Below the pieces are notes generated by a model, which saw only the letters and a program-made list of their open reading frames with translations, ran no database searches and was not told the origin of the DNA. A stretch of DNA of 64,000 nt from Oscillospiraceae bacterium (lineage in GTDB: Bacteria; Bacillota; Clostridia; Oscillospirales; Oscillospiraceae), in contig WQWL01000001.1 of NCBI GenBank assembly GCA_009785345.1, positions 62,001 to 126,000 on the forward strand. Reading direction: 5' to 3'. Both the position numbers and the translations under genes were made by a program. Shown here in pieces: positions 15,654-58,927 of this stretch; positions within the stretch are counted from its first letter, which is position 1; every line of letters begins with the position of its first letter.

Positions 15654-16415
15654 TTAGAATTCTGCAATAGTTTCTTCTGCGTCAACTTCTACAAAATCAG
15701 AGGTTTCAGACATAATATTAGATTTCTCCGGTTCCTCTGCATTATCTACAGCAACTTCCGCTACAACATTGTCACTATCAATAGGTAAAATTTCATCTTC
15801 AGTTAAGTTTTCTGCAAACTCAGCATTACGTGCCTTTAGCTCTTCGATAGCGTTTTGAATGCCTTCTCTCTCATCACCCCCAGCCTCAACTGTTGGCAAA
15901 TCCGGAAGCTCTCTCAATGACTCAAGTCCAAATGTTCTAAGGAAATTATGTGTTGTTTTAAAAAGCATCGGACGACCAGGAGCGGCCAGCCTACCACAAG
16001 CTTCTATAAGACCACGTTCCTGTAATATTCCAACTGTGTACGCACTATCTACACCTCTAATTTGCTCAATATATGCTTTAGTAACAGGACCAAAGTATGC
16101 AATTATTGATAACACTTCCAAAGCAGGCGGTGATAGCTGTGGAGGCTTTCTTGTTTCTAAAGCTCTTCTAATGTAATCGGCATACTCAGGCGAAGAGCAC
16201 AATTGCAATGTATCTTCAAGCCTGACAAGTCTTATACCACGGCGCACAAAACTATAATTGTCACGCAATCTATCTCCGGCGTGCTCTATTTCATTAACTG
16301 CAACACCAAGTACATCCGCGATTCGTGATATTTTAACCGGCTCACCGGATACGAATAAAATCGCTTCTATTGCAGACTCTATTTCATTATTGTCCATATT
16401 TTCAAGACTCATCAT
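15654..16415 (-). CDS. scpB: Segregation and condensation protein B
   Basis: 253 residues. Two winged-helix domains occupy about 1-180, with AIEAILFVSGEPV at the start and the conserved RRALETRKPPQLSPPALE and ITRGVDSAYTV-like region in the middle. The last 70 residues are acidic and poorly conserved. ScpB joins ScpA and Smc in the bacterial condensin that organises the chromosome. The gap to scpA holds the third copy of the leader element described at 16416-16527. Confidence 0.92.
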   Translation of the reverse strand: MMSLENMDNNEIESAIEAILFVSGEPVKISRIADVLGVAVNEIEHAGDRLRDNYSFVRRGIRLVRLEDTLQLCSSPEYADYIRRALETRKPPQLSPPALEVLSIIAYFGPVTKAYIEQIRGVDSAYTVGILQERGLIEACGRLAAPGRPMLFKTTHNFLRTFGLESLRELPDLPTVEAGGDEREGIQNAIEELKARNAEFAENLTEDEILPIDSDNVVAEVAVDNAEEPEKSNIMSETSDFVEVDAEETIAEF

Positions 16416-16527
16416 TATAATGATTATTCCTTCGTGATACTTTAGTCACAAAACAACCAAGATTAAGGGATGGTCATTTCGCGCATTAATTTGCGGTTTT
16501 CCGCAGAGAGAGCAAATTGGCACATTC
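16416..16527 (-). ncRNA. Structured leader element, copy 3 (before scpB)
   Basis: Minus-strand sequence closely matching the leaders of pilT and pilM. It has GAATGTGCC, a perfect AATTTGC/GCAAATT helix, the loop ending AAAACCGC, then GAAATGACC, a weak GGTTGT partner followed by TTTTGTG, and AAGGAATAATCATTATA before the ATG. The upstream TTCAAAC hairpin of the other copies is absent because scpA ends there. No known RNA family is recognised. Confidence 0.65.
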
Positions 16528-16533
16528 AAACTT

Positions 16534-17331
16534 TTATTCCTCAACTGAAGTATCTAGTGTGCTGGTTGGTGTTACAGGGTTACTCGTTACGTATACGACT
16601 TTCAAATCCTCCGGAGTCCCCGTCACATTTGTATTACCAATTTTACAAAGTTCTAAAATCGCCACAAACGTAGCAATCAACTCGGTTCGACTTTCACATT
16701 CCCGGAAGAGCTTTTTTATTGAAACTTCCTTTTCACGTTTTAATCTATTTAGAACATGATCAATTTTCACGGATATAGAATAAACTTCCGGACTAGGGTA
16801 GACCATTTCTCTTTTATTTATACTATTTATTCGTAAACTTTCTTTACCGATTATATTAAACATTGCCTCAAGCAATTGGTCACTAATATGAACGTACTCA
16901 TATCCTTTATCCGGAGGTAAATATTCAGGTGGACCTGCCATCATCAAACCATCGCGAGTATACATTCCACCAAGTGTTTGTGCTATTTCCTTTATCTGAA
17001 CATATACATCTCCTCGACGCAATTCTTCAAGAGATGAAATTAGTTGCTCAAGTTCAGATACCTCTTCACCGCCGGACAGGAGCATCTTGGTTTTTATATA
17101 TGTAAGATGTGAAGCCATTGCAACAAATTCACTTGCGATATCAAGATTCAGCTCTGCCATTTCATCAAGATAGGCTAAATATTGCTCAAGAATAAGAGAA
17201 ACACTAATATCTCTAATCTCTACTTTATCTCTACGAAGTAGCTGAAGTATTAGCGTCAGTGGACCTTCAAAATCAGTCATGTCCTCTTTTTCTTTTACAA
17301 TTCCCTCTAGTTTGAATACAGGTGTTTCCAA
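16534..17331 (-). CDS. scpA: Segregation and condensation protein A
   Basis: 265 residues from a TTG start preceded by AAGGAG. The kleisin of the Smc-ScpAB complex: the N-terminal block has DFEGPLTLILQLL and then LDIASEFVAMASHL. The C-terminal winged helix carries the REMVYPSPEVYSI region and ends with a short extension rich in T and S. It is the first gene of the scpA-scpB pair, separated from scpB by the structured leader. Confidence 0.92.
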   Translation of the reverse strand: METPVFKLEGIVKEKEDMTDFEGPLTLILQLLRRDKVEIRDISVSLILEQYLAYLDEMAELNLDIASEFVAMASHLTYIKTKMLLSGGEEVSELEQLISSLEELRRGDVYVQIKEIAQTLGGMYTRDGLMMAGPPEYLPPDKGYEYVHISDQLLEAMFNIIGKESLRINSINKREMVYPSPEVYSISVKIDHVLNRLKREKEVSIKKLFRECESRTELIATFVAILELCKIGNTNVTGTPEDLKVVYVTSNPVTPTSTLDTSVEE

Positions 17332-23284: not shown

Positions 23285-23343
23285 AATTATGACCATTCCT
23301 TTCGTTTCTATCGATATATTGTAAGTTTGAATCTATATTAAAT

Positions 23344-31726: not shown

Positions 31727-34700
31727 ATGTTTAAGTTGTATTGTAGAATTTATCAATTCATTTTTAAGTGTGCTGCATATTGTTTGCCTTGGCGTAAGCC
31801 TGAATTACTTGAGGGCGCAGGTAGTATAGATAAGCTCCCTGCCTTGATTAAGCAACGTGGAATAAATACAGTACTGCTCGTCACAGACAGCACTATAATG
31901 TCTCTCGGTCTTACAGATGAATTGCAAGCTGCACTTCGTGATGCAGACATACAAACAGCTATATATGATAAGACCGTACCAAATCCAACATTAGAAAACA
32001 TTGAAGACGCGTATAAAATCTATAAGGAAAATAATTGTAAAGGCATAATTGCATTCGGTGGCGGTTCTCCCATGGATTGTGCAAAAGGTGTCGGTGTGCG
32101 AGTAGCCAGACCACGTACCGACATAAGACGAATGAAAGGCTTGTTGAAAGTTATAGTACCTCTTCCACAAATATTTGCAATCCCAACAACTGCCGGAACA
32201 GGCAGCGAAACAACTGTCGCCGCCGTTGTCGTAGATAGTAAAACTAAAGACAAGTATGCACTAATGGATCCAACATTAATACCACGTGTTGCAGTTCTTG
32301 ATCCAACACTTACTCTGAAGTTGCCTCCATTTGTAACTGCGACAACAGGTATGGATACTCTTTGCCATGCCATAGAAGCTTATATCGGCAGAAGTAATAC
32401 AAAGACAACAAGAGAAATGGCAAAATTAGCCACTAAACTTGTCTTTGAAAATTTGTATACAGCATACTCAGATGGAATGAATGTTCAAGCTCGCACTAAT
32501 ATGCTAAAAGCTGCATACTGTGGCGGTGTTGCGTTTACGCGTGCATATGTAGGAAATGTGCATGCTGTTGCCCATGCTTTAGGTGGCACATATGGTGTTG
32601 CCCATGGACTAGCCAATGCAGTCGTTCTCCCCTATGTCTTGGACGATTATGGTACAAAAATATACAAGTCACTCGCTGAACTTGCAGATGTGGTCGGCAT
32701 AAAAGGCAATACTAACGAGCAAAGAGCAAAAGGTTTTATAACAGCAATTAGAGAACTAAATTTAAAGATGAACATTCCAACGACAATTGATGAAATCGAA
32801 GAGGAAGATATTCCTGCACTTGCAAAACATTCACATAAAGAAGCAAACCCAACATATCCTGTTCCGCGCATTTTCTCCCAAGCTGATTTCACAAGTATTT
32901 ACGAACGTCTTATGGGAAAATCCGGAATAAATGGTTATGCAGGTAAAATGGCTCGCATAGATTTAACAAGTGGCGATATTTCGAACTTTATGCTTCCAAA
33001 AGATGATTTGAAAAAATATATTGGCGGAAAAGGATTGGCAGCAAAGATTATATATGACTCTCTTGACAGAAAAATAGAAGCATTTTCCGATGAAAACCTC
33101 ATCGTTATCACTACCTCCCCCCTTAATAGATCCAGCTTCCCAAGTTCATCAAGATATAATATTTCCACAATATCTCCACTTACAGGTCTACTTGTCTCTT
33201 CAAACTGTGGTGGTGATTTTGGCTTGAAACTTAAAGCTGCCGGATATGACGCCATCGTAATCTCCGGAAAAGCATCGAGTAAAACCTATATCGATATCAA
33301 TGAAAATGGAATCGAACTAAAAGACGCAACTGCTATGTGGGGCAAAACCACAACCGAAACAAAAGAAATGCTCGGCGATGGCGGTAAATTAGTAATAGGA
33401 GCTGCCGGTGAAAATCTCGTTCGATATGCATGTGTCGTAAATCAAGAACGTGTTGCAGGACGAGGCGGTGTTGGCGCTATTTTTGGGTACAAACAAATAA
33501 AAGCTATCGTTGTAAACGGCAATGCAGCTGCTATTAAAATTGCTAATAGCGCACGTTTAAAGAAACTCAATGCTAAGTGGATTTCGACACTAAAGAACCA
33601 TCCTCTAACGGGTAAGCAATTACCGGAAATGGGTACTGCTGCTCTTGTCAGGCAAATGCAAGAACGTGGTTTGTTAGCAACAAAGAACTTCCAATATGGC
33701 ACATTTGATAATTATGATAAAGTAAGTGGAGAAACTCTTCGTGATAATTATCTGATCAAGACTAAAGGCTGTTTGAGTTGTCCGGTAAAATGCGGACGTA
33801 TTGTTGAACATGAGGGTATTGAAATAAAAGGACCTGAGTTGGAAACAATCGGTCTTCTAGGTCCTAATCTTATGCATGATGATTTAGAACGAATAATTAG
33901 AGTAAACTATTTATGTGATGAATACGGAATGGACACAATGTCTTTTGGGGGCTCGGTTGGTTTTGCAATGGAGCTCAGTGAAAAAGAACTTTGGAATAAT
34001 GGTTTAAAATTCGGTGAGTGTGAGAATCTTGAAGAGCTTGTGTCAAAAGTAGCAACACGAGATGGAATCGGTGATGACATTGCCGATGGTGTCAGGCTCA
34101 TGTCTGTGAAGTACGGTGGCAAGGAATTCGCAGTTCACAGTAAAGGGATGGAGCTTGCAGCATATGACCCTCGCGCTGCACAAGGCATGGGACTCGGATA
34201 CGCAACCGCAAACCGTGGTGGATGTCACTTGAATGGCGGCTATCTGGTTGTAATGGAAGGTTTGGGGCTAGGTGTGAGTGGCAATACTACAAGAGGCAAA
34301 TCGGCATTCGCTGTGTTTTTCCAAGACTTGATGGAATCAGCGTCTGCTTTGGGCGCATGTCTATTCACAACATACGCAGTATTCCCTCCTGTTTCTATAC
34401 ATAATCAAAAAAATATCATCGTAAAAATGGTATATTCTATGATGCCAAATTTTGGTGGAGCAGTCGCATTTATTCATAGGCATCCATGGATAATGGACTT
34501 TAATATTTCAGCTATGATTCCTTTCCCCTTTGCATATCAACAAGTTACGGGGAATAAAATGGACATTGGCAAATTTGTTCAAACAGGTGAACGAATTTTC
34601 AATCTCGAAAGAATGATAAACATCCGTCAAGGTTTAACCGATGGTGATACTTTACCTGCAAGACTTGTAGATCAGCCACAAAAAGACGGAAATGAGAAAA

Positions 34701-34804
34701 GCATTGTGCACTTGGCTCCAATGCTGAAAAAGTATTATAAAATACGCCGTTGGGATGCTAATGGTGTGCCAACAGCGAAGTTATTAAGGAAGCTCGGGAT
34801 ATGA
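31727..34804 (+). CDS. Iron alcohol dehydrogenase fused to aldehyde:ferredoxin oxidoreductase
   Basis: 1025 residues with no internal stop. Residues 1-396 are an iron-dependent alcohol dehydrogenase: FGGGSPMDCAKG, TTAGTGSE and metal ligands D210, H214, H279 and H293. After a short linker, residues 402-1025 are a tungsten/molybdenum bis-pterin oxidoreductase: YIGGKGLAAK, cluster cysteines C682, C685, C689 and C878, and GLGYATANRGGCH. Separately these convert aldehyde to alcohol with NAD(P)H and carboxylic acid to aldehyde with ferredoxin. Inference: one chain could channel acid to alcohol. GGAGAGGAA precedes the ATG. Two moeA genes lie 4-7 kb away. Confidence 0.9.
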   Translation: MFKLYCRIYQFIFKCAAYCLPWRKPELLEGAGSIDKLPALIKQRGINTVLLVTDSTIMSLGLTDELQAALRDADIQTAIYDKTVPNPTLENIEDAYKIYKENNCKGIIAFGGGSPMDCAKGVGVRVARPRTDIRRMKGLLKVIVPLPQIFAIPTTAGTGSETTVAAVVVDSKTKDKYALMDPTLIPRVAVLDPTLTLKLPPFVTATTGMDTLCHAIEAYIGRSNTKTTREMAKLATKLVFENLYTAYSDGMNVQARTNMLKAAYCGGVAFTRAYVGNVHAVAHALGGTYGVAHGLANAVVLPYVLDDYGTKIYKSLAELADVVGIKGNTNEQRAKGFITAIRELNLKMNIPTTIDEIEEEDIPALAKHSHKEANPTYPVPRIFSQADFTSIYERLMGKSGINGYAGKMARIDLTSGDISNFMLPKDDLKKYIGGKGLAAKIIYDSLDRKIEAFSDENLIVITTSPLNRSSFPSSSRYNISTISPLTGLLVSSNCGGDFGLKLKAAGYDAIVISGKASSKTYIDINENGIELKDATAMWGKTTTETKEMLGDGGKLVIGAAGENLVRYACVVNQERVAGRGGVGAIFGYKQIKAIVVNGNAAAIKIANSARLKKLNAKWISTLKNHPLTGKQLPEMGTAALVRQMQERGLLATKNFQYGTFDNYDKVSGETLRDNYLIKTKGCLSCPVKCGRIVEHEGIEIKGPELETIGLLGPNLMHDDLERIIRVNYLCDEYGMDTMSFGGSVGFAMELSEKELWNNGLKFGECENLEELVSKVATRDGIGDDIADGVRLMSVKYGGKEFAVHSKGMELAAYDPRAAQGMGLGYATANRGGCHLNGGYLVVMEGLGLGVSGNTTRGKSAFAVFFQDLMESASALGACLFTTYAVFPPVSIHNQKNIIVKMVYSMMPNFGGAVAFIHRHPWIMDFNISAMIPFPFAYQQVTGNKMDIGKFVQTGERIFNLERMINIRQGLTDGDTLPARLVDQPQKDGNEKSIVHLAPMLKKYYKIRRWDANGVPTAKLLRKLGI

Positions 34805-37361: not shown

Positions 37362-37523
37362 AATCATGTCCCTTATTAATGAATCGTACTAATAATCATC
37401 CTCTTTCATGAGATCATGAGAGTTTTGTGCCTAAGAAATCCGAAATGAATGATTATCAGTATGATTATAGTACGAAAGGTATATTGATTCAAGATAAATA
37501 TAATTCCGCTAAGAAATCCACTT

Positions 37524-43522: not shown

Positions 43523-43676
43523 TATTGTGAGGTGACATTAGTTTGAATGAATTCAAACTAACGAAAGAATATGCCACTTGCTCTCCCTATGGGAAACCGC
43601 AAGTGAAGCATGAAATGACCGTCCCTTCTCATGGTCATTTTGTGTCTAGAGATTTTCGAAAGGAATGGTCATTATA
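43523..43676 (+). ncRNA. Structured leader element, copy 1 (before pilT)
   Basis: Between pilB and pilT. Helix 1 is TTAGTTTGAA/TTCAAACTAA (43538-43561) with a TGAA loop. Helix 2 is ATGC+CACTTGC paired with GCAAGTG+AA+GCAT (43571-43611), capped by TCCC-TAT-GGGA and AAACC. Helix 3 is AAATGACC/GGTCATTT (43613-43640) followed by TTTTGTG. Segment 43615-43625 can also pair with the ribosome site GGAATGGTCAT (43662-43672). Copies occur before pilM and scpB. Confidence 0.7.
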
Positions 43677-44732
43677 ATGCATATCAATGAACTGCTTGCA
43701 AAAGCAAGAGCTGAACGAGCAAGTGATGTCCACATTACAGTTCAACGTAATCCCCTATTTCGCATAGATGGGGTGCTGCACGAGACAGCATATTTGCTTA
43801 ACATACCTGAAAAGCGCGAAATGGTGCTTTCTCTTCTTACTGAAAAGCAACGTAAGAAAGTCGAAAACACCATTGATGTTGACACGAGCTATGAAACTGA
43901 TGATGGCTTGCGCTATCGTGTTAATGTGTTCTATCAACAGCAGCAAATCGCCGCTGCCATAAGACTTCTCAATGAACAGATACCCACATTTGACGAGTTG
44001 GGACTCCCAGACTCACTTCGATCACTTGCTGATGAGCCTCGTGGACTTATTCTAGTAACTGGACCAACCGGAAGCGGTAAATCTACCACTCTTGCAGCAA
44101 TGGTTGACTACATCAACACGAAAAAAGCATGCCATATTTTAACTATTGAAGACCCCGTTGAATATGTATACAAGCAAAAAATGGCAATGATACATCAACG
44201 CAATGTTGGTGAAGATGTGGAAAGTTTTTCTGGTGCGTTAAAGAGTGCAATGCGCGAAGACCCTGATGTTATACTTGTTGGAGAAATGCGAGATTTTGAG
44301 ACAATATCTGCAGCAATAACTGCCGCTGAGACAGGGCATCTGGTTCTCTCCACACTACACACCACCGGTGCAGCAATGACAATTGATCGAATCATTGATG
44401 TATTCCCACCCCATAGTCAACAACAAATTCGCACACAACTCTCAGCTGTACTTAGAGGCGTCATTACACAAACTCTATTACCGAAAGCGAGTGGTATTGG
44501 TCGTGTTGCGGCATTTGAAATTATGATAGGAACAGACGCTGTTTCTACTTTAGTACGAGAAAGCAAAGGACATCAACTCAACTCAATCATACAAACAAGC
44601 TCACGTCAAGGTATGGTCTTACTTGATGACTATCTTGCCAATTTGGTAAGAAGCGGCGTAATAAAAAAAGAAGCAGCTCTTGAAAAAGCTACAAATAAGA
44701 CAGAATTTCTTTCAGCTATCGAGCGCATCTAA
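43677..44732 (+). CDS. pilT: Type IV pilus retraction ATPase PilT
   Basis: 351 residues from the ATG at 43677; an ATG four codons earlier lies inside the ribosome site AAGGAATGGTCAT. The N-terminal PAS-like domain begins MHINELLAKARAERASDVH. The ATPase has Walker A GPTGSGKST near 128, Walker B DPDVILVGEMRD, and the HLVLSTLHTT histidine box. It pulls pilin back into the membrane, so the pilus is probably retractile. The leader before it is structured. Confidence 0.95.
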   Translation: MHINELLAKARAERASDVHITVQRNPLFRIDGVLHETAYLLNIPEKREMVLSLLTEKQRKKVENTIDVDTSYETDDGLRYRVNVFYQQQQIAAAIRLLNEQIPTFDELGLPDSLRSLADEPRGLILVTGPTGSGKSTTLAAMVDYINTKKACHILTIEDPVEYVYKQKMAMIHQRNVGEDVESFSGALKSAMREDPDVILVGEMRDFETISAAITAAETGHLVLSTLHTTGAAMTIDRIIDVFPPHSQQQIRTQLSAVLRGVITQTLLPKASGIGRVAAFEIMIGTDAVSTLVRESKGHQLNSIIQTSSRQGMVLLDDYLANLVRSGVIKKEAALEKATNKTEFLSAIERI

Positions 44733-47530: not shown

Positions 47531-47679
47531 AAAGGTGACAAATTTGGATAAATTCAAACTTCCGCAAGAATGTGCCAATTCGCTCTCCCTATTGGAAACC
47601 GCAAATTAATGCACGAAATGACCATTCCATATTCATGGTTGTTTTGTGATTAGCAAGTACGAAAGGAATGGTCATACCA
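47531..47679 (+). ncRNA. Structured leader element, copy 2 (before pilM)
   Basis: Between pilC and pilM. It aligns along its length with the pilT leader. GTGC/GCAC closes helix 2 (compare ATGC/GCAT in copy 1, a covariation), CTCTCCCTATTGGAAACCGC forms its cap, and ATGACCAT/ATGGTTGT forms helix 3 followed by TTTTGTG. ATGACCATTCC (47618-47628) is perfectly complementary to the ribosome site region GGAATGGTCAT (47665-47675). Confidence 0.7.
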
Positions 47680-49119
47680 ATGAAAACGTCAGTTCATATT
47701 TCAACAGATATGGTGAAAGTTGTATCATACACAAAGTCAGGAACACATATAACCGTAAAAGACTATTCAAGTTATCCACTTCCGGAGGAATGCATGTTGA
47801 GTGGAGTTATTCTCGATGTCAACCCAATTCTCGAAGCTCTGCGTTCACTTAAATCTGCTAATCAACATTTGTTTAAAGAAACATCATTGGTTATAGACGG
47901 CAACTTTGTATATTCAAAAAAGATAACTATTCCTAACAAGCTTAACAAACTAATGTGTGACGAGATTATTCGTGATGAATTTTCAGAAATTTCTACAGAC
48001 TCAGAAAACTTAATTTGCGACTACTCTACTCTTGGATATAATTCCGATGGTTCAAAAAATATACTTGCTTGTGCCATCGAGAGTTCTCATGCTCAATCAT
48101 ATATCTCTCTTTTCAATGCGGCAGATATCAAGCTCACATCCCTCCATCTTGGAATATTTACAGTTTTGCAGTTTGTTAGCAGCATCACAAAATTGGAACA
48201 TGAATCATTTGTTCTAAATTTGGTTGATGATGTTGTAATGCTTTCAATGATTTTCCAAAATGGTGATAATGTTTTTCAATCAAGAACAAGGCTTTACGGT
48301 GATGATCGTTCAGCGTTGGTCAATGGCACACTAGACGAACTTTCCGGTATCATCCAATTTAATAGATCTCAAAACTTTGACGAAATAAAGTATTGCTATT
48401 ATCTGGGACTTACTGACTCTGATATGGAAGAAATAATACGCGATACCTCATATCCTGAGATTAGCTTTTCAAAACTTAACTTATACAAAAATGCTAAAAA
48501 AGCAGAAATTCTTCCACCAAATGCTCACTTTGCTTACTTTAATGCATTAATGCCGGATTCAAAAAACGACATACTTTATTGCATAAAAATGTTGAATAAA
48601 GCCAAGCAACTTAGACAGCCAAAAAGAACATGGATTCCTGTCCTCGCAGCTGTTTTTATAATGGTTGCAACGACAATAACCGGTCTGTGGATATTGACAT
48701 CAAGTGTTGAGCGAGATATCCGTGAGATAAATGAATTTCTCGAAGCTCCATATACTGTTGCTGAAAGGAATAGATTAGAGGAACTTGATTTCAACACAAC
48801 TCATATAACTACACTTTATGAGTCTGCTATAGATATGCAAGGAGAAACAGATAGTGAGCACAACATAAATAGACAAATCCTCGATAGTCTTATGAATACC
48901 GCCGGAGAGATTGTCGAAATAAATGGAATAAACTTCAACTATTCTAATGGTACGATTACTGTTTCCTGTTCAAGTTCAACAGAGTACGACGCATCAGCAT
49001 TTGTTGAGTTATTGAGAACAAATTCAATGCTTACAAACTTTAATGTCTATTATACCGGCTACGCTACAGGTGCAGATGGGGTATTTATATTCAGCATTGA
49101 TGTAGTAATTCCCGTATAA
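47680..49119 (+). CDS. pilM: PilM-PilN fusion, pilus alignment protein
   Basis: 479 residues from the ATG at 47680. Residues 1 to about 300 resemble actin-like PilM: an SVHISTDMVKVV start and later GDDRSALVNGTLDEL. After a basic segment comes one membrane helix (about 322-345) and a periplasm-side domain of about 130 residues with coiled coil and a C-terminal beta sheet, as in PilN. PilM and PilN are normally two proteins that bind each other, so this is a natural fusion. pilO follows after 48 bases. Confidence 0.82.
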   Translation: MKTSVHISTDMVKVVSYTKSGTHITVKDYSSYPLPEECMLSGVILDVNPILEALRSLKSANQHLFKETSLVIDGNFVYSKKITIPNKLNKLMCDEIIRDEFSEISTDSENLICDYSTLGYNSDGSKNILACAIESSHAQSYISLFNAADIKLTSLHLGIFTVLQFVSSITKLEHESFVLNLVDDVVMLSMIFQNGDNVFQSRTRLYGDDRSALVNGTLDELSGIIQFNRSQNFDEIKYCYYLGLTDSDMEEIIRDTSYPEISFSKLNLYKNAKKAEILPPNAHFAYFNALMPDSKNDILYCIKMLNKAKQLRQPKRTWIPVLAAVFIMVATTITGLWILTSSVERDIREINEFLEAPYTVAERNRLEELDFNTTHITTLYESAIDMQGETDSEHNINRQILDSLMNTAGEIVEINGINFNYSNGTITVSCSSSTEYDASAFVELLRTNSMLTNFNVYYTGYATGADGVFIFSIDVVIPV

Positions 49120-50945: not shown

Positions 50946-51650
50946 CTACTTTTCAACTGATTCAGATTCAATAATTTCATAGCTCACTAACACCCACTTA
51001 CCAAAATCACTAAAATTCATCTCTCTTATTTCGCCATCGGCATTTTCGTCCGACAATATACCATCTCTATACTCGTAGGTTGCTACCGTTGTGATAAATC
51101 TAGGTGTTTCTCTCAAACTTGCAGATTCAATCTCTACGATTGTACAAACAGTCATTTGCGCATTTACTGTAGCCGTTTTTGGGATACGAGGGGTTGGTGG
51201 TATCGTTTCAGGCACTGCATCGACGGGTCCTGCAAACCTAACATCCTGGAATAGTATTTCTAACGCTATGCTTTCAACAGCACTCATATCGACTCCCGGT
51301 ATATCAATATCAAGCTCAACCGTCTCAATTGGTACTTCTGAATTCGTGTTATTGTAGATTAGTTGTGCAATTTGGTATGCTAACGAATTTTCAAAATCCT
51401 CATCGAGATAATCTGTTGATGAAGGCGTCATTTCCAGACTGTGTTTAATACTTCCATGTATTGAGTCTGTCATAACTATTGCTGTATTGTACTTACTTTG
51501 TCTAACATTTGAACCAATGTTTGCACTTGCAGCAGTTAGAACGGAAGCGCCGACAGCCAAAAGCAAGAACATGATTCCAAGCACAAACATTAATGACATG
51601 CCTGATTTATCTTTCAATATTCTAGAAGCTTTGTTTATAAGTCGCATCAT
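50946..51650 (-). CDS. PilX-like pilus assembly protein
   Basis: 234 residues from ATG at 51650, which overlaps the preceding stop by one base (TGATG) and has GGAGG five bases upstream. A short basic N-terminus ends KSG before MSLMFVLGIMFLLL, then a hydrophobic helix without the glutamate at position 5 of ordinary pilins, as in PilX/GspK proteins. A long soluble domain with acidic stretches follows. GspK-like subunits cap pilus tips. Confidence 0.68.
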   Translation of the reverse strand: MMRLINKASRILKDKSGMSLMFVLGIMFLLLAVGASVLTAASANIGSNVRQSKYNTAIVMTDSIHGSIKHSLEMTPSSTDYLDEDFENSLAYQIAQLIYNNTNSEVPIETVELDIDIPGVDMSAVESIALEILFQDVRFAGPVDAVPETIPPTPRIPKTATVNAQMTVCTIVEIESASLRETPRFITTVATYEYRDGILSDENADGEIREMNFSDFGKWVLVSYEIIESESVEK

Positions 51651-54600
51651 CAACGCCTCCATTCTCTATTTCTTTGCTCGTGATATCGCAAAATATATCG
51701 ATTAACTCTGCGTCCATTACGTTTACATCTATTGTACTCATTGATTCTTCGAACAGCTCTTGCATTGCGCTTTCGCATGTATCTTTTAAAAATTCTTGTT
51801 TGAGTAAATCCAGCTCCACCAAATAGTGTAATTACGCCGGTTGCAATTGCAAAACCATCTCTACTTGTTGTGTCTTCATCACTATCAGCTATGCCATCTT
51901 CTTCGGAATTTCTAACATTGTCTGTGTAGGATTCATTTGGGCTTCCCTTTCCATTATCATCACCGGTTAATTCATCTGGTACATCTCCATATTCGCCTCC
52001 ATCATCTGAGGTGTTAGATTCATTATCATTGTCACCCAAGTCATCCATACAGCTTTCATCTACTGCTATTTCATCCATTTCGCTCTCATGCATCTCGCTA
52101 AGTTCTATATTCCATTCTGATGCAGTCGTTGCTATCAACTCAGGCTCACCTTCAATAACGATAGGCCACGCGGTTGGAACACTTTGTGTTGATGATATTA
52201 TGCGATTAACATATGGATAGGTGTTTTCGTAAACAAAATCGTACATAGGTGTTGATGATGGCAGCGTCCAGATCGACGGTATTTGATTTGTCCAATAAGG
52301 TAAAGCTTCAATCGTTATATATAGCTCTTCAGTATCGACCATTGTGAAATCGATTACCGGCTGTGTGAATACTATATAATCAAAGCCATTAACAGAGCTT
52401 ATAGTGTTATTTTCGCTATCTATAATCATGACTTCAGATGTGGATATTCCACCGAGATAATATACTTCCATGTATTTTGCCGACGTTCCGGCTTCAGAGT
52501 TTATGATTGGATATATTTCTGTACCATTATTTGGTGCAGGTGCCAGGTAAATAACGCTTGTTATTTTTCCGGTATTTTCCCCAACCACACCGCCAGCTTT
52601 TGCTCCTGAGCCTCCTGTTGGTACAATAACATTTTCACTATTTATATCCAGAATTGAACTTACAATAGAAATATCTGTTATCATCCCTGTATTCTGCCCT
52701 GCTATTGAGCCTACATACACAGCTGAGCCTACTTGTGCATTAACATTCCCTCGTATTGGTGATGTTGATCGCGATGTACCATCAAACACTAATGTAACCC
52801 TGCTAATTGTGCCATTATTCCGGCTAAATAGGCCAACATAACTCGTTTGGACTGAAGTTCCAGACTGTGTATAGTTAATCGTTAACCCTTTTATAATATT
52901 GCCACTACCATCAAATATTCCGTCGAATATCCCCATTACAACAGCCGCCGAGTTGCCTAATGATATATTTGTAAAATCAAGGTCGCGTTCCTGTATAAAG
53001 TTAACACCTGATGTTACTGTAGGAGCACTCATTTGAATCATTTGTTGCGGAGTGCGTATATAAATTTGTGACGGATTCGTTGCAGCTGCAAAATTAGTAT
53101 AAATAGACTTTGCAAAACGTGTATCTATCCAATAACCGGTTGCTTGGTCGTTTACATAAATCTCACCTGATACACCTGATGCAACCGTTGTCGGAATTAC
53201 AGCATAGTAATAGCTAGTCTCAACACCAACTCCGGGTCGTGCTGTATCTATAGAATTTATATAGGTATTATTACCATTACTTGCATTTATGCTTATACCA
53301 AATGTTCCCGGTCTATCAATCATAACAGCATATCCATACCGTGTTACCTGAACATCATTATTATTGCTGAGCTCTGGTAACCCAGAACTACTCTGTGTTG
53401 AATAAAAACCAACAGTTCCATCAGAATATTCTTCAAAGTAGACAATATCCTTAGCTGTAACAGTTGCTACAGGCCATGTCATGGTTGGCGATGTGCCGAG
53501 ATATGGATATGGGTTATATTCACTGAGTATTGTGTTGTTCAGTGTTAGCACAGATGACTGTCTCCAAAATTCACCAAGCTCACTACTTGCATTCAGTTCT
53601 TGTGTTGTACGAGGCTCACCGCGAACTACTGCTGATGTTGGGAAAATGTTGAAGTTTGCTGTTTGTGGTGCTTGTGTAGGGCGCAGTACTGATGAATACG
53701 TACCGGAGAGATAGTATGCATTTATTTCTGTTCCTTCTCCTGCTGCTGTGATAGGGGCAATAGCAGTAGTTGAACTTCCTGATGCTTGTGCAAGGAATAA
53801 GGCATTCTCTATTGTGCCGTCGTTTGTTCCAACAATTCCTCCTGTTTTATCTGATCCGGTAATCGGTTGTTGTGATATAGAAGTCGTTGAGTTTCCTGAA
53901 ACAAAGGCAACATTTCTAACAACTCCATTGTTTATAGATGCAAAACTGCCATTATTGCTTCCATTTTGAATATATGAGTTGTAAAGTGTCAGATTTTCAA
54001 TAGTTCCGTTTACTCCAATTGTATTAAATAGCCCTTTGTTATCTCTTGTAATATTTGTGCCTGTAGTTGAATTTACTAATGACAAGTTACTAATATTATT
54101 CCCTTGCCCGTTATATACACCTGTGAACTCACCACGAACTATGTTAGCAAGCTGAGCCACAGTAGGTTGATTATTGCCCGGAGGTGATACAAGACTTACT
54201 CCAAGTCCTGTTTTTGTCATATCGATATCTATCTCTTGAATAAACGTATGTTCATGATCATTGCTGCAAAGTGCAACACTCTTTTCAATGTATAGCGATA
54301 TGTTTTGTAACTGCCACGGTGTGCGTATTGCATGCTCTGTTGGATGCCGATTTTTTACATTACTCAATACAGGAGGAGTGCCTGAGCCTGAACCCAGATC
54401 CACAGGATAAACTTCTTTGGCAAAGAATGGGTTAACAAATGCTTTAATTCCTGGAAGCTCAACTTTACCAGATGAGCTGGAAATGAACAGTATAATTGGC
54501 TCAATCGGATTTTGTGCACTTTCTGCTGCACTTAAAAGCAATCTTGCAGGAAAATAAACAAACTTACGTGGTTGCAATTGCGGAACTGGTAAATCCAAAC

Positions 54601-57600
54601 CGGATAGTTGCATTTGCCCCCCCGGTCCACCAGCATTCAGTTCTGCCCACGGACTCCAGGAATTATTTATATATTGCGAGAATACCACCGGACGATTTGC
54701 GTTTGTGTTAAAGCCGGTCGGTATTTCAGCACCGTATCCTGCTTCAGTTATAATTGGATTATCATATCTTAAATAATCCATAATTCTCAAGTTGCCAGCT
54801 GCATCATAATATCGTGCAAATATTCCTATTCCACCTCCGGTATATTTTTCGTAGTAAATCAAACCCAACTCATCAGGGAGATCATTTGGTATAAAGGCGA
54901 CAACTGGCCATTCTTCTCTTTCTATAGATGGAACTGTTCCTATGGGAAAAGGATATAGAAATTGTGTATGGTTTTGCATTGCATCAAAGTTTATGTTATT
55001 TGTATTATTTATAGTCCAATTATTGTTAAATTGCACTGTACTATAACTTTCTACAATGCTTTTTGTATCCATAGCAGGATAATCCAACTTTTGTCCTGTT
55101 GCCCTGAGATTATAGTCAGTATAAGATGCAGTACCACCATCTAAAACTGTTTGGAATGGTCTAAGTGCCGGTTCACCGGAAAGGTACACAGCGTTGTTGC
55201 CATATGAAGTATTAGATCCTGTAAATGGACGCATTTCTGCTCTTCCGCTTCCTATTCTAGGAGCGACTGCAAGATACATGATGTTATCAATTTCGCTTGC
55301 TGTCACACCCGCAATGCCTCCAACTGAAGCAGTGTTTGTTCCTCTGATTGCAGGGCGTGCAGATGTAGACGTAAATATTACATCGTTCAAAGCACCTAAG
55401 TTATTTCCAACAATCCCGCCAACATTTGACGTTCCTCGTACAGCAGCAGGATGGTCGCTCCAATCAGGTAATTGTCCCTGTGCATTTCGAGTGACAACTT
55501 GTTGTACAAAGCAACTTTTAACAATCCCAGAACTCAAGTTTGTTCCAACAATTCCTCCGACATTTGAGCGGCCTACTATGGTGTCTGTTGTGTATGAATA
55601 TAATCTAAGTGTTACTTGTTCAATAATTCCTGCATTTTCTGCAAATAATCCAACATTGTCAGAGCTCGGAGTATTAATCATCAGGTTTGATATCCACATA
55701 TTCGTACCGACAAATCTTCCGGCAAATTGTTCTGTGATAATTGCATTTTTTGCAAACAATCTGCGTGTAGTCGTATTTGTGTTAAATGTATTGCCGCTTG
55801 ATTTCACTACTTCACCGTAGTAGTTTATGGCATAATCTATGTTTAAATGTTGTGTGAAAACGCCACTTGTGTCCCCTGCAACAAAGTTTATATTATCCAT
55901 CTGCCTTGCTGAACGTATGCTTGCATTTGTTGTATTAGTAAAATTAGCAAATAATGGATTATAGCTTTCAACGACTCCCGAACCAGGAGCATTTACTCTG
56001 CTTAAAATGTTCTCTACAGAAGTAATTTCATCAATTGAAGTCTCTGCATTTGGGAACAGTCTAATATCTATCTGCTTATTTGTTGGCGAACTTGCATATT
56101 CAAGAGCAAGATAATTCGGTATATAAATGCGGTACATAACTGGATTATCAATACCATCCTCTGGAATATTAATCGTAGGAACAAACTGCTCAGCAGCCTG
56201 CCAGTCCTCGTCAAGTACTGCTTCCTCTATGCCATCAACAATCACTAATACTCTCCATTCATTATCAATTTGAATAATTTTATAGAAGTGTCCTTCTCCG
56301 TACTCAAACAAATATCCCTGCGTATTCGGATAAAACTCAATGGCATAACCATCGTGTGTTACAAGTGCGGACGAACCTGCAGATACAATAGTAGTGCTTA
56401 AATATGGACTTACATATCTCCGTGAATAATCTGAGTAAAATTCATAATAAACCAACGCACCTGCATGGATTATTGTTTCACCATAAATATCTTCCCATCC
56501 CATTTCATGGCTCTCTTGTAGAGGATCAAGTATGGACTCTTCTATGTATGCAAACGGGTTGTTATTCGCCAGTATTGGATATGGATATTGAGTATATTTG
56601 TTCTTCTGAACACCGTCACCATATGCAGCAAGATAATCGATGTTAACATCAAAGCCCGAAGGTAAGCGAACGTTGGCAATATCGCTTAGTTCTTCTCTCG
56701 TTAGTGATCCCCAATCAGCACCAGAGTCTGTCGCACCATTTGCAATATAGTGGGAATTTCTGATCGTACCGGTATTCGTTCCGGCAATTCCGCCTGTATT
56801 GATGTTTGCATCATTATAAATTGCCACAAAGTTAGTAGCATAGCTGTTTTCTATAGTTTCTGTACTTTCGTTCAGTCCGGCAATTCCTCCCAGATTAGTA
56901 CCACTTGAAACGGTCGCTGTTGATGTATAGCTAATAGACTGATATGTATCCGGATCAATCTCAACATCTTCTATGTTTACTCTGGCATTATTATGGCAAT
57001 ATGTGATTTTCCCATCATTACTACCAACTAATCCACCTATATTCCCACCATTTGCAATAACAGAACCTGTGCCGATGAAAACTAATTCATTTTCACCATT
57101 TTCAGCTTTCATATATTGGAATGTGCGTGTATCACTATGTGTATTGAAATATCCGGCATTAAATGAATACGACAATACTCCCTTATTTTCTATGCGCCCG
57201 ATAAGACCACCGATATTACCGCTATCACCCAAAACATTCGCAAAGCTATTGCTACGGATTACCTGTCCCCCATCTAAAATTCCTGCAATAGAACCAACAT
57301 TCGTGGCATTTGGTGCGATAATTTCTGCATCAAACAATGAAACGCCGACAATATTCCCTTGAACATTTGAAAATAATCCAACATTTTGATTATTATATGC
57401 TGACTTATCAGAAGTATTTATTCTTAAATACTCGATTCTCCATTGTAAATTTGTTCCATTTACAGCGTTGTATGAGCCTGTCAAATTTGTAATCGGTCTG
57501 AAGTTGTATGGTGTTCTATTTATTTCTGCGGCCATCTCATTTATCAAGGTCCTCATGTCAATATCAGCTGTTTGCGCATAATTGCCATCAGGAACATAGA

Positions 57601-58927
57601 TTATATTATTAAGATGTCTGACTGATGTAACTTCATATGTGCCATTTGGCCATTTGTCTAAAAAGTGCGTATTTGCATACATAGGTGACTCAATATTTTT
57701 ACCATTTTCTATTGAAATCCCGGCACGCACATTCATTGAATGGTCTATGTTGCTATACTTTTCAACAATGTTGTTAGGTTGAGTAAAAATATTTTCTTCA
57801 ATAAAGTCAAGAATCCAAATATAACGATTAAACAAACCACCAACATCAACACCATGTTGGTTAACCACAACTCTCGTATCAGTATCGAGATATACAGCAT
57901 GATTGTCATTGTTTTGAGTTTGTTCGATTGCAGTTCTAAAATCTGTATAAACTGTTGTTGAACCACCTATGTTGGATGAATCATTAAAACTCAATAACAT
58001 TCGTGCTTCACTATCTGCATTCTCTGTGTCGAATATGTAGAACATGCGCTGTTCTGCATTAGCAACATCTAAAGGTTGTTGCAATAAATACTCTGCAAAC
58101 AAGACATTTTTTTCTCGAACAGGATTAGTAGCATCCGGACTCACATTCAGACCGAACTGTTGCTCTCCCTGTGATGCGTGCAGTTGCCATGCTCCATCAT
58201 CATAGTTCATACCATCATAAATGCGGACTATATCTTCAATCGGCAATGTTGGTGCAATACCGGTATAGTCAACACCGTAATATCCTTGACGTCGACTATA
58301 TGCAATACTAGGATAAGCACTTTCCATGCCGCGTTCGCCAATTATGTCGCTATTTCCATCCGTACCACCATATGCAAATACAGTTTGCCCACTAAGATCA
58401 TCGCCATAGAATATTGACATGACAACACCTGTCCTGACGTTAAATTCCATCAGAATCGCACCATCTAATATTTCTTTATTTACAATGATTTCGTCAAGAA
58501 GTGCATAGAAATCATCAATAATTTTATTTTCGCCGAAAACATAGTTTGATGGCTTGCTTATGAAGTAAACATTATCAATGTTCTCTGTGTCATTAACGGG
58601 AAAAACATCAAGACAATTTGAAACCTTGCCTACAAGGTTAGCATCGGCAAATCCTTGAACAAGATCATTATCTTCCAAATAAAAGCCATCGGTTAGCATT
58701 GTGTGCAAATTGCCTTCTACCGTTGCTCTCGTGAGTTGATTTTGCATGGCAACATAAAGTGTCCGAGCAATATTTTCCCGATTTTTTTGTTGCTCATGCC
58801 TAATCATGGCTATAAATGATGGTATTAGCGTTGCTGCAAGGATTGCAATAACAACTAACACCACAATTACTTCAGTTAGAGTAAAACCTTTGTTTGCATT
58901 TCGCGCTCTAGTAAACAATATACTCAT
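51650..58927 (-). CDS. Giant prepilin-type adhesin with GLUG-like repeats
   Basis: 2425 residues, uninterrupted. A 14-residue leader ends ANANKG-like (NANKG) before FTLTEV with E5 and a pilin helix, so it is a prepilin. Four modules begin near residues 439, 1007, 1534 and 1956 with RTPQQM/RTPWQL-like lines and contain GLUG-type repeats (GGLVGSNDGKI, GGIVGTNDGTI, AGGVVGENTGKI). From about 2255 there is an acidic stretch, then a hydrophobic helix (near 2355-2372) and an arginine-rich end. Inference: a surface adhesin exposed by pili or anchored at both ends. The ATG at 58927 is very close to GGAGAGG; a TTG three codons later is better spaced. Confidence 0.85.
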   Translation of the reverse strand: MSILFTRARNANKGFTLTEVIVVLVVIAILAATLIPSFIAMIRHEQQKNRENIARTLYVAMQNQLTRATVEGNLHTMLTDGFYLEDNDLVQGFADANLVGKVSNCLDVFPVNDTENIDNVYFISKPSNYVFGENKIIDDFYALLDEIIVNKEILDGAILMEFNVRTGVVMSIFYGDDLSGQTVFAYGGTDGNSDIIGERGMESAYPSIAYSRRQGYYGVDYTGIAPTLPIEDIVRIYDGMNYDDGAWQLHASQGEQQFGLNVSPDATNPVREKNVLFAEYLLQQPLDVANAEQRMFYIFDTENADSEARMLLSFNDSSNIGGSTTVYTDFRTAIEQTQNNDNHAVYLDTDTRVVVNQHGVDVGGLFNRYIWILDFIEENIFTQPNNIVEKYSNIDHSMNVRAGISIENGKNIESPMYANTHFLDKWPNGTYEVTSVRHLNNIIYVPDGNYAQTADIDMRTLINEMAAEINRTPYNFRPITNLTGSYNAVNGTNLQWRIEYLRINTSDKSAYNNQNVGLFSNVQGNIVGVSLFDAEIIAPNATNVGSIAGILDGGQVIRSNSFANVLGDSGNIGGLIGRIENKGVLSYSFNAGYFNTHSDTRTFQYMKAENGENELVFIGTGSVIANGGNIGGLVGSNDGKITYCHNNARVNIEDVEIDPDTYQSISYTSTATVSSGTNLGGIAGLNESTETIENSYATNFVAIYNDANINTGGIAGTNTGTIRNSHYIANGATDSGADWGSLTREELSDIANVRLPSGFDVNIDYLAAYGDGVQKNKYTQYPYPILANNNPFAYIEESILDPLQESHEMGWEDIYGETIIHAGALVYYEFYSDYSRRYVSPYLSTTIVSAGSSALVTHDGYAIEFYPNTQGYLFEYGEGHFYKIIQIDNEWRVLVIVDGIEEAVLDEDWQAAEQFVPTINIPEDGIDNPVMYRIYIPNYLALEYASSPTNKQIDIRLFPNAETSIDEITSVENILSRVNAPGSGVVESYNPLFANFTNTTNASIRSARQMDNINFVAGDTSGVFTQHLNIDYAINYYGEVVKSSGNTFNTNTTTRRLFAKNAIITEQFAGRFVGTNMWISNLMINTPSSDNVGLFAENAGIIEQVTLRLYSYTTDTIVGRSNVGGIVGTNLSSGIVKSCFVQQVVTRNAQGQLPDWSDHPAAVRGTSNVGGIVGNNLGALNDVIFTSTSARPAIRGTNTASVGGIAGVTASEIDNIMYLAVAPRIGSGRAEMRPFTGSNTSYGNNAVYLSGEPALRPFQTVLDGGTASYTDYNLRATGQKLDYPAMDTKSIVESYSTVQFNNNWTINNTNNINFDAMQNHTQFLYPFPIGTVPSIEREEWPVVAFIPNDLPDELGLIYYEKYTGGGIGIFARYYDAAGNLRIMDYLRYDNPIITEAGYGAEIPTGFNTNANRPVVFSQYINNSWSPWAELNAGGPGGQMQLSGLDLPVPQLQPRKFVYFPARLLLSAAESAQNPIEPIILFISSSSGKVELPGIKAFVNPFFAKEVYPVDLGSGSGTPPVLSNVKNRHPTEHAIRTPWQLQNISLYIEKSVALCSNDHEHTFIQEIDIDMTKTGLGVSLVSPPGNNQPTVAQLANIVRGEFTGVYNGQGNNISNLSLVNSTTGTNITRDNKGLFNTIGVNGTIENLTLYNSYIQNGSNNGSFASINNGVVRNVAFVSGNSTTSISQQPITGSDKTGGIVGTNDGTIENALFLAQASGSSTTAIAPITAAGEGTEINAYYLSGTYSSVLRPTQAPQTANFNIFPTSAVVRGEPRTTQELNASSELGEFWRQSSVLTLNNTILSEYNPYPYLGTSPTMTWPVATVTAKDIVYFEEYSDGTVGFYSTQSSSGLPELSNNNDVQVTRYGYAVMIDRPGTFGISINASNGNNTYINSIDTARPGVGVETSYYYAVIPTTVASGVSGEIYVNDQATGYWIDTRFAKSIYTNFAAATNPSQIYIRTPQQMIQMSAPTVTSGVNFIQERDLDFTNISLGNSAAVVMGIFDGIFDGSGNIIKGLTINYTQSGTSVQTSYVGLFSRNNGTISRVTLVFDGTSRSTSPIRGNVNAQVGSAVYVGSIAGQNTGMITDISIVSSILDINSENVIVPTGGSGAKAGGVVGENTGKITSVIYLAPAPNNGTEIYPIINSEAGTSAKYMEVYYLGGISTSEVMIIDSENNTISSVNGFDYIVFTQPVIDFTMVDTEELYITIEALPYWTNQIPSIWTLPSSTPMYDFVYENTYPYVNRIISSTQSVPTAWPIVIEGEPELIATTASEWNIELSEMHESEMDEIAVDESCMDDLGDNDNESNTSDDGGEYGDVPDELTGDDNGKGSPNESYTDNVRNSEEDGIADSDEDTTSRDGFAIATGVITLFGGAGFTQTRIFKRYMRKRNARAVRRINEYNRCKRNGRRVNRYILRYHEQRNREWRR

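Follow-up and report, generated by a model that had tools for sequence, protein, structure and literature searches.

The structured region between pilB and pilT is probably one copy of a non-autonomous mobile element that inserts into the spacer between a Shine-Dalgarno sequence (SD) and the start codon and donates a new SD, which lies within a two-state structure. Mobility and the insertion site are well supported, and regulated switching is plausible but unproven. The interpretation as a mobile element is based on the copy number, the species-specific targets, and the existence of empty sites. The window, i.e., the whole stretch of DNA that was analysed, has a length of 64,000 nt. The genome to which it belongs is designated G000; congeners and other genomes are coded G###, loci L###, and contigs C###.

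Element in the pilB-pilT gap

The pilB-pilT gap (43523-43676) contains a three-hairpin element of about 135 nt at 43538-43672 on the forward strand. The element, its parts, and the adjoining host signals are as follows.

43538..43672, forward strand, full element, pilT copy (covariance model R1, 149.6 bits); starts with TTAGTTTG and ends with GGTCAT
43529..43535, forward strand, host SD GAGGTGA, now 7 nt before the TTG of the element (from the sequence and the SD enrichment 5' of all copies)
43538..43561, forward strand, H1, the 5' palindromic hairpin TTAGTTTGAATGAATTCAAACTAA, 24 nt (compensatory UA/CG and UA/GC/AU pairs)
43543..43545, forward strand, TTG within H1, spaced from the host SD as a start codon would be (NTG survey of the hits, alignment column)
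43571..43611, forward strand, P2 hairpin, with the outer stem ATGC/GCAT, the inner stem ACTTGC/GCAAGT, and the apical stem TCCC/GGGA (R3 model, 61.3 bits)
43582..43598, forward strand, P2 core, internal loop TC (43582-43583) / AACC (43595-43598), conserved in A6 across the class
43615..43627, forward strand, segment 2, anti-SD arm ATGACCGTCCCTT (sequence, alignment)
43630..43644, forward strand, segment 3, SD-mimic arm CATGGTCATTTTGTG, whose pairing with segment 2 frees the SD
43658..43672, forward strand, segment 4, donated SD GAAAGGAATGGTCAT (sequence, pilT start evidence, genome-wide 15-mer count)
43677..43679, forward strand, native pilT start codon, 4 nt 3' of the element (orthologues)

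Segments 2 and 4 together make the 3' hairpin, H3. The start of pilT was placed at 43677 rather than at the in-frame ATG at 43665, the choice of the ORF caller, because orthologues support a protein beginning with MHINELL; the ATG at 43665 belongs to the element. The gap folded at -49 kcal/mol compared with -34.8 ± 3.6 kcal/mol for shuffled sequences (z -3.9), and the sequence, coordinates, and strong hairpins given for it in a preliminary description were confirmed. That description had also recognised no known riboswitch class, and Rfam 15 agreed: no family matched the element at its gathering score in the window, and none matched at E ≤ 1 at five loci with copies.

Copies in the window and in other genomes

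The near-copies previously noticed before pilM and scpB are real and are two of about 70 in the genome. A decayed relic and a diverged partial copy were also found in the window.

47539..47675, forward strand, pilM copy; native start at 47680
16420..16544, reverse strand, scpB copy; the 5' arm of H1 is missing and the start is at 16415
23289..23332, reverse strand, decayed relic, which retains the 3' arm of H1 and the donated SD (23289-23303), with the interior gone; an ATG lies 4 nt downstream (23284-23282)
37392..37462, forward strand, partial copy, diverged; 3' half only

Two other features of the window were recorded. An ORF of 1025 aa (31727-34804, forward strand) fuses an iron-containing alcohol dehydrogenase to an aldehyde ferredoxin oxidoreductase, which is an unusual fusion. 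Near the pil genes, a protein of 2425 aa (51650-58927, reverse strand) carries a GLUG motif and, at its N terminus, a methylation motif like that of type IV pilins.

The number of matches in G000 was 42 by DNA search, 68 by a covariance model from 36 copies, and 70 by a second model. Copy numbers by model were about 70 in G000, 54 in G010, and 2 to 16 in other carrier congeners, and the covariance model search gave zero copies in seven congeners, G001, G003, and G013 being among those with none. The real copy number may be higher, since contigs end at copies and the repeats may break the assembly. Three contigs of G000 (C7, C127, and C219) and one of G010 (C56) start or stop inside or near copies. 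At loci L215-L219 of G012, several copies have a P2 apex enlarged by GGGGAAATCCGCGACGCGC-like units, an apparent repeat expansion within the element. The nearest named record by PilT was an uncultured Oscillospiraceae MAG, Emb289P3bin58 (78% identity), which presumably comes from a termite gut. The viral contigs and phages searched contained no copies of the element, and the plasmids searched gave a single convincing P2-core match, in Vescimonas fastidiosa.

Insertion site and target genes

The position of the copies was surveyed in a pooled sample of 134 model hits. Two reverse-strand hits (L013 and L017), apparently artefacts caused by the palindromic 2:3 helix, are part of this number. Since the model ends with GGTCAT, before the start codon, the position of that codon was observed independently. 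It lay 4 nt 3' of the element in 99 hits, 3 nt in 10, and 5 nt in 8, and within 2-7 nt for all except a few degenerate or contig-end copies; the 9 hits in which a start codon was absent were mostly degenerate or at contig ends. The copies were in sense orientation relative to the downstream gene. In 51% of copies, the 13 nt 5' of the element included an SD-like match of 5 nt or more, compared with 4% of random upstream positions and 15% of shuffled sequences. When the flanks were joined, the SD-ATG spacing, where an SD was recognisable, was mostly 3-10 nt, which is that of an ordinary gene start.

The frames downstream of the element are real genes. All twenty that were tested gave named families, and the others examined were more diverse. 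The targets are unrelated housekeeping genes, namely, hisS, rplX, ruvX, folD, mnmA, recR, pfkA, and leuS and, further, secY, eno, era, queA, aspS, topA, rplI, and scpB. Almost no target loci were common to species by DNA and protein comparison, with the exception of two G004/G016 pairs. A leader reserved for pilT, or for a regulon with a ligand, is not supported, given these unrelated, species-specific targets, the position in the SD-ATG spacer, and the empty sites in relatives.

No direct repeat clearly longer than 2 nt was found beyond controls in 128 copies, and this lack of a target-site duplication argues against ordinary DDE transposition. The left end showed no fixed target tetra- or pentanucleotide, the left flank having only an SD-like purine enrichment. 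The search for a mobilising enzyme was negative; the number of Y1 transposases does not follow that of the copies, with none in G010, despite its 54 copies, and 3 in G000.

Filled, empty, and decayed sites

Empty sites were searched for with joined-flank queries, which were matched across the junction in related genomes. The filled pgsA site of G004 consists of GGAGAA, the element, and then ATATGAACACC (shorter form, ATATGAAC), and the corresponding empty sites are GGAGTACTAAAATG in G016, GGAGAAGTAGTATTATG in G018, and GGAGAAGTTATATG in G015. The truA site is filled in G004, and an element-sized gap separates it from G015, G016, and G006, in which it is empty. parA was set aside as an empty-site candidate because its upstream regions do not align.

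Decay of the element was seen at scpB. G000 has a near-full copy, the orthologues in G005 and G010 keep the 3' part alone (AAAGGAATGGTCA before the ATG), and the remaining orthologues are without the element. The donated 15-mer, with at most 1 mismatch, occurred 103 times in G000 and 116 times in G010, compared with 0 and 1, respectively, for the reversed control. The scpB orthologues and the relics show that the donated SD can outlast the decay of the element as the SD of the gene. Congeners that lack full copies also have solo GAAAGGAATGGTCAT sequences a few nucleotides 5' of start codons (L373, L374, L376, L381, and others), and some of these sites are conserved between species. They may be either old relics of lost elements or native extended SDs that resemble the one in the element.

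Alternative pairings of the donated SD

The preliminary description had pointed out that 43615-43625 (ATGACCGTCCC) can pair either with 43633-43640 or with the ribosome site at 43662-43672 and that the helices are kept despite sequence change. Both points were upheld by covariation, which was analysed over 36 copies from G000 and over 69 copies that came from several genomes and were aligned with MAFFT without regard to structure; both pairings covary over the 69 copies. In the 69 copies, the SD-closed form was paired in 93.4% of cells, and 139 cells had changed on both sides, compared with 36 ± 4.6 in shuffles. Its covariation score was 0.230, compared with 0.095 when shuffled (0/500). The SD-open form was paired in 91.1% of cells, with 100 changed on both sides compared with 31 in shuffles and a score of 0.221 compared with 0.116 (0/500). 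When the partners were slid by 1-3 columns as a control, the pairing of both structures was lost.

Segments 2, 3, and 4 showed three-way covariation, from GACCAT/ATGGTC/ATGGTC to GTCCAT/ATGGAC/ATGGAC, and several intermediates retain G-U pairs. The upper 2:3 helix is lost in a subgroup of G010. Folding predicted that the SD is closed by default, with a median opening cost of 3.9 kcal/mol. Overall, the placement of the copies was non-random, the covariation was significant, and no described family was matched.

These pairings bear on the possibility that the element is selfish only, in which case the H1 and H3 hairpins would serve mobility, the SD of H3 would do no more than keep the host gene functioning, and no regulatory role would fall to the 2:3/2:4 alternative. 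Such an element would be expected to lack a regulon among its targets, as is the case here, and the decay of copies down to a bare SD and the terminal hairpins without segment 3 in distant P2-core relatives are consistent with it. However, segment 3 is maintained by compensatory change, and it was observed in no type other than the SD-bearing one, in which the SD has to be freed. A selfish element without a regulatory role is conceivable but doubtful, and the two-state structure around the donated SD is the preferred explanation.

The NTG in H1 and the displaced host SD

H1 contained TTG, GTG, or ATG in 118 of the 134 hits and CTG in 2, at initiation distance from the host SD where the latter was recognisable. 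In the 69-copy alignment, the pair at this column was UA in 47, GC in 15, AU in 6, and CG in 0, and the pairing of H1 was maintained while the buried triplet varied among TTG, GTG, and ATG. This exchange with H1 still paired, together with the initiation distance, suggests a leader ORF initiated from the split-off SD. No conserved leader peptide was found in the 134 hits; the reading frame varies between copies and stops at differing places. An open leader frame was apparent in L001, L004, L171, and L179 and does not extend to most copies. Opening of the SD by leader translation was considered as well. In folding predictions, masking of the RNA as far as the leader stop or beyond it gave no lower opening cost, and simple leader-coupled opening is therefore not predicted.

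The same region could act as a translation-sensitive attenuator, in which the leader is translated from the NTG in H1 and the position or stalling of the ribosome selects the 2:3 or the 2:4 pairing. This would account for the 118 hits with an NTG at SD distance, for the triplet exchange without any C-G pair at that column, and for the spacing, which is kept where copies lie in tandem. Nevertheless, neither the peptide nor the frame is conserved, and the open form is not favoured by ribosome masking in the model, which makes an attenuator of this kind unlikely.

The P2 core and relatives beyond the genus

The first reading of the structure was that of a ligand- or protein-responsive, riboswitch-type regulator whose conserved loops form a binding core. 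The conserved loops were confirmed in part: conservation of the UC/AACC internal loop of P2, the putative binding core, extends to other genera and as far as a second family of the class, with differing 3' outputs. In a subgroup of G000 (L012, L020, L009, L013, and L018), a plain hairpin replaces UC/AACC and the anatomy is otherwise the same, indicating that the P2 loop is not an obligatory ligand pocket. With targets that are scattered and species specific, and with empty sites in existence, a riboswitch-type regulator is very improbable. A dedicated ligand is not required for the explanation by a two-state SD.

A model of the P2 core only was used to search beyond the genus, and the leads from it rest on few loci. 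It matched elements in a second clostridial family, f55 (genomes G472, G504, and G621; L341, L342, L364, L349, and others). These elements begin at TATAAT, the -10 box of a likely promoter with the host -35 about 17 nt (16-18 nt) upstream, and end in a new extended -10, TGGTATAAT. The host -35 score was at least 5/6 in 4 of 15, compared with 1.9% in shuffles. In most copies, the -10 variant on the left agrees with the H3 arm and with the right end (e.g., GATATAAT/ATTATATC/GATATAAT), and a gene start was recognisable downstream in some copies only.

In some Oscillospiraceae, including Vescimonas fastidiosa, the P2-core elements adjoin terminators and end in terminator-like hairpins. At L335, L337, L330, L319, L336, and L338 of V. 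fastidiosa, such hairpins stand on either side of the P2-core elements; the neighbours of L335 are a T-box leader and a valS-like gene, one on each side. The SD type, with differing H1 sequences, was found in other genera and in one further family of the order, at L318 (ahead of a hisI-like frame), L156, and L317. We tentatively suggest, as a possibility that falls short of probable, that mobile elements with three hairpins (H1-P2 core-H3) form a superfamily in clostridia, each type of which would insert at an SD, a -10 box, or an intrinsic terminator and regenerate it in the 3' arm of H3. Recognition or mimicry of the signal would then be the targeting principle.

Proposed mechanism and implications

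In the proposed mechanism, the element inserts in sense into the SD-start spacer and comes to lie about 4 nt ahead of the start codon, as is evident from the positions of the copies. The insertion parts the gene from its own SD, for which the 3' end of the element, judged by its sequence, provides a replacement. The original SD is left before the NTG in H1 and probably initiates a short leader ORF there. Within the mRNA, the new SD would be either closed by segment 2 or free once segments 2 and 3 pair, both pairings being maintained among the copies, and these closed and open pairings may set the translation rate in the cell. A gene whose SD is split from its ATG would be expected to fall silent; the SD brought at a fixed distance by the element would avoid this silencing, and the two-state structure would moderate its use. 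The act of transposition itself, the translation of the leader, and the graded control are the steps that we infer.

Mobile elements normally survive by landing harmlessly. The SD-start gap of essential genes should be among the worst landing places, and the element appears to survive there by donating a new SD. It may thereby constitute a route for replacing the ribosome-binding sites of core genes and spreading them across the genome, with solo donated SDs as footprints. The element may also offer a natural, portable translational switch. The question raised is which machinery can locate the spacer upstream of a start codon, in DNA or RNA. Searches of the open-access literature yielded no account of repeats in phase with the SD-start spacer, and a 2024 review of prokaryotic MITEs leaves start codons, Shine-Dalgarno sequences, and ribosomes unmentioned. 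The habit of inserting between SD and start codon, dozens of times in genomes of gut bacteria, appears to be undescribed.

Comparison with known systems

The element resembles translational riboswitches and erm-type attenuators in that the SD lies in one of two exclusive helices, but it differs from them in being mobile and in having no known ligand, conserved leader peptide, or regulon. IS200/IS605-derived palindrome-associated elements and REP have terminal hairpins and lack a target duplication, as does the present element. Unlike IS200/IS605, it has no fixed target tetranucleotide, and a Y1 transposase is missing from G010. With a length of about 135 nt, about 70 copies, and no coding capacity or conserved frame, it is similar to a MITE, whereas its ends are two separate hairpins (H1 and H3) rather than mutual inverted copies, and there is no target duplication.

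BOX, RUP, and SPRITE of Streptococcus pneumoniae are interspersed repeats that are likewise short, structured, and non-autonomous and that spread within one lineage in a burst (PMC3049150). Terminal inverted repeats and target duplications characterise BOX and RUP, and the families are enriched between convergent genes, whereas the present copies are in sense and phased to start codons. The Rickettsia palindromic elements (RPE), of about 150 bp, are found in many unrelated housekeeping genes and are tolerated since the gene stays expressed (PMC10969869). Insertion into core genes is likewise tolerated with the present element. However, RPE lie in frame within ORFs and add a peptide, while the present element lies in the SD-start spacer, before the start codon, and leaves the product unchanged. 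Correia elements and other promoter-bearing MITEs are mobile repeats that lend an expression signal to the neighbouring gene (PMC10969869). The signal that they supply is a promoter, whereas the present element replaces a displaced SD and does so at a set distance ahead of the start codon.
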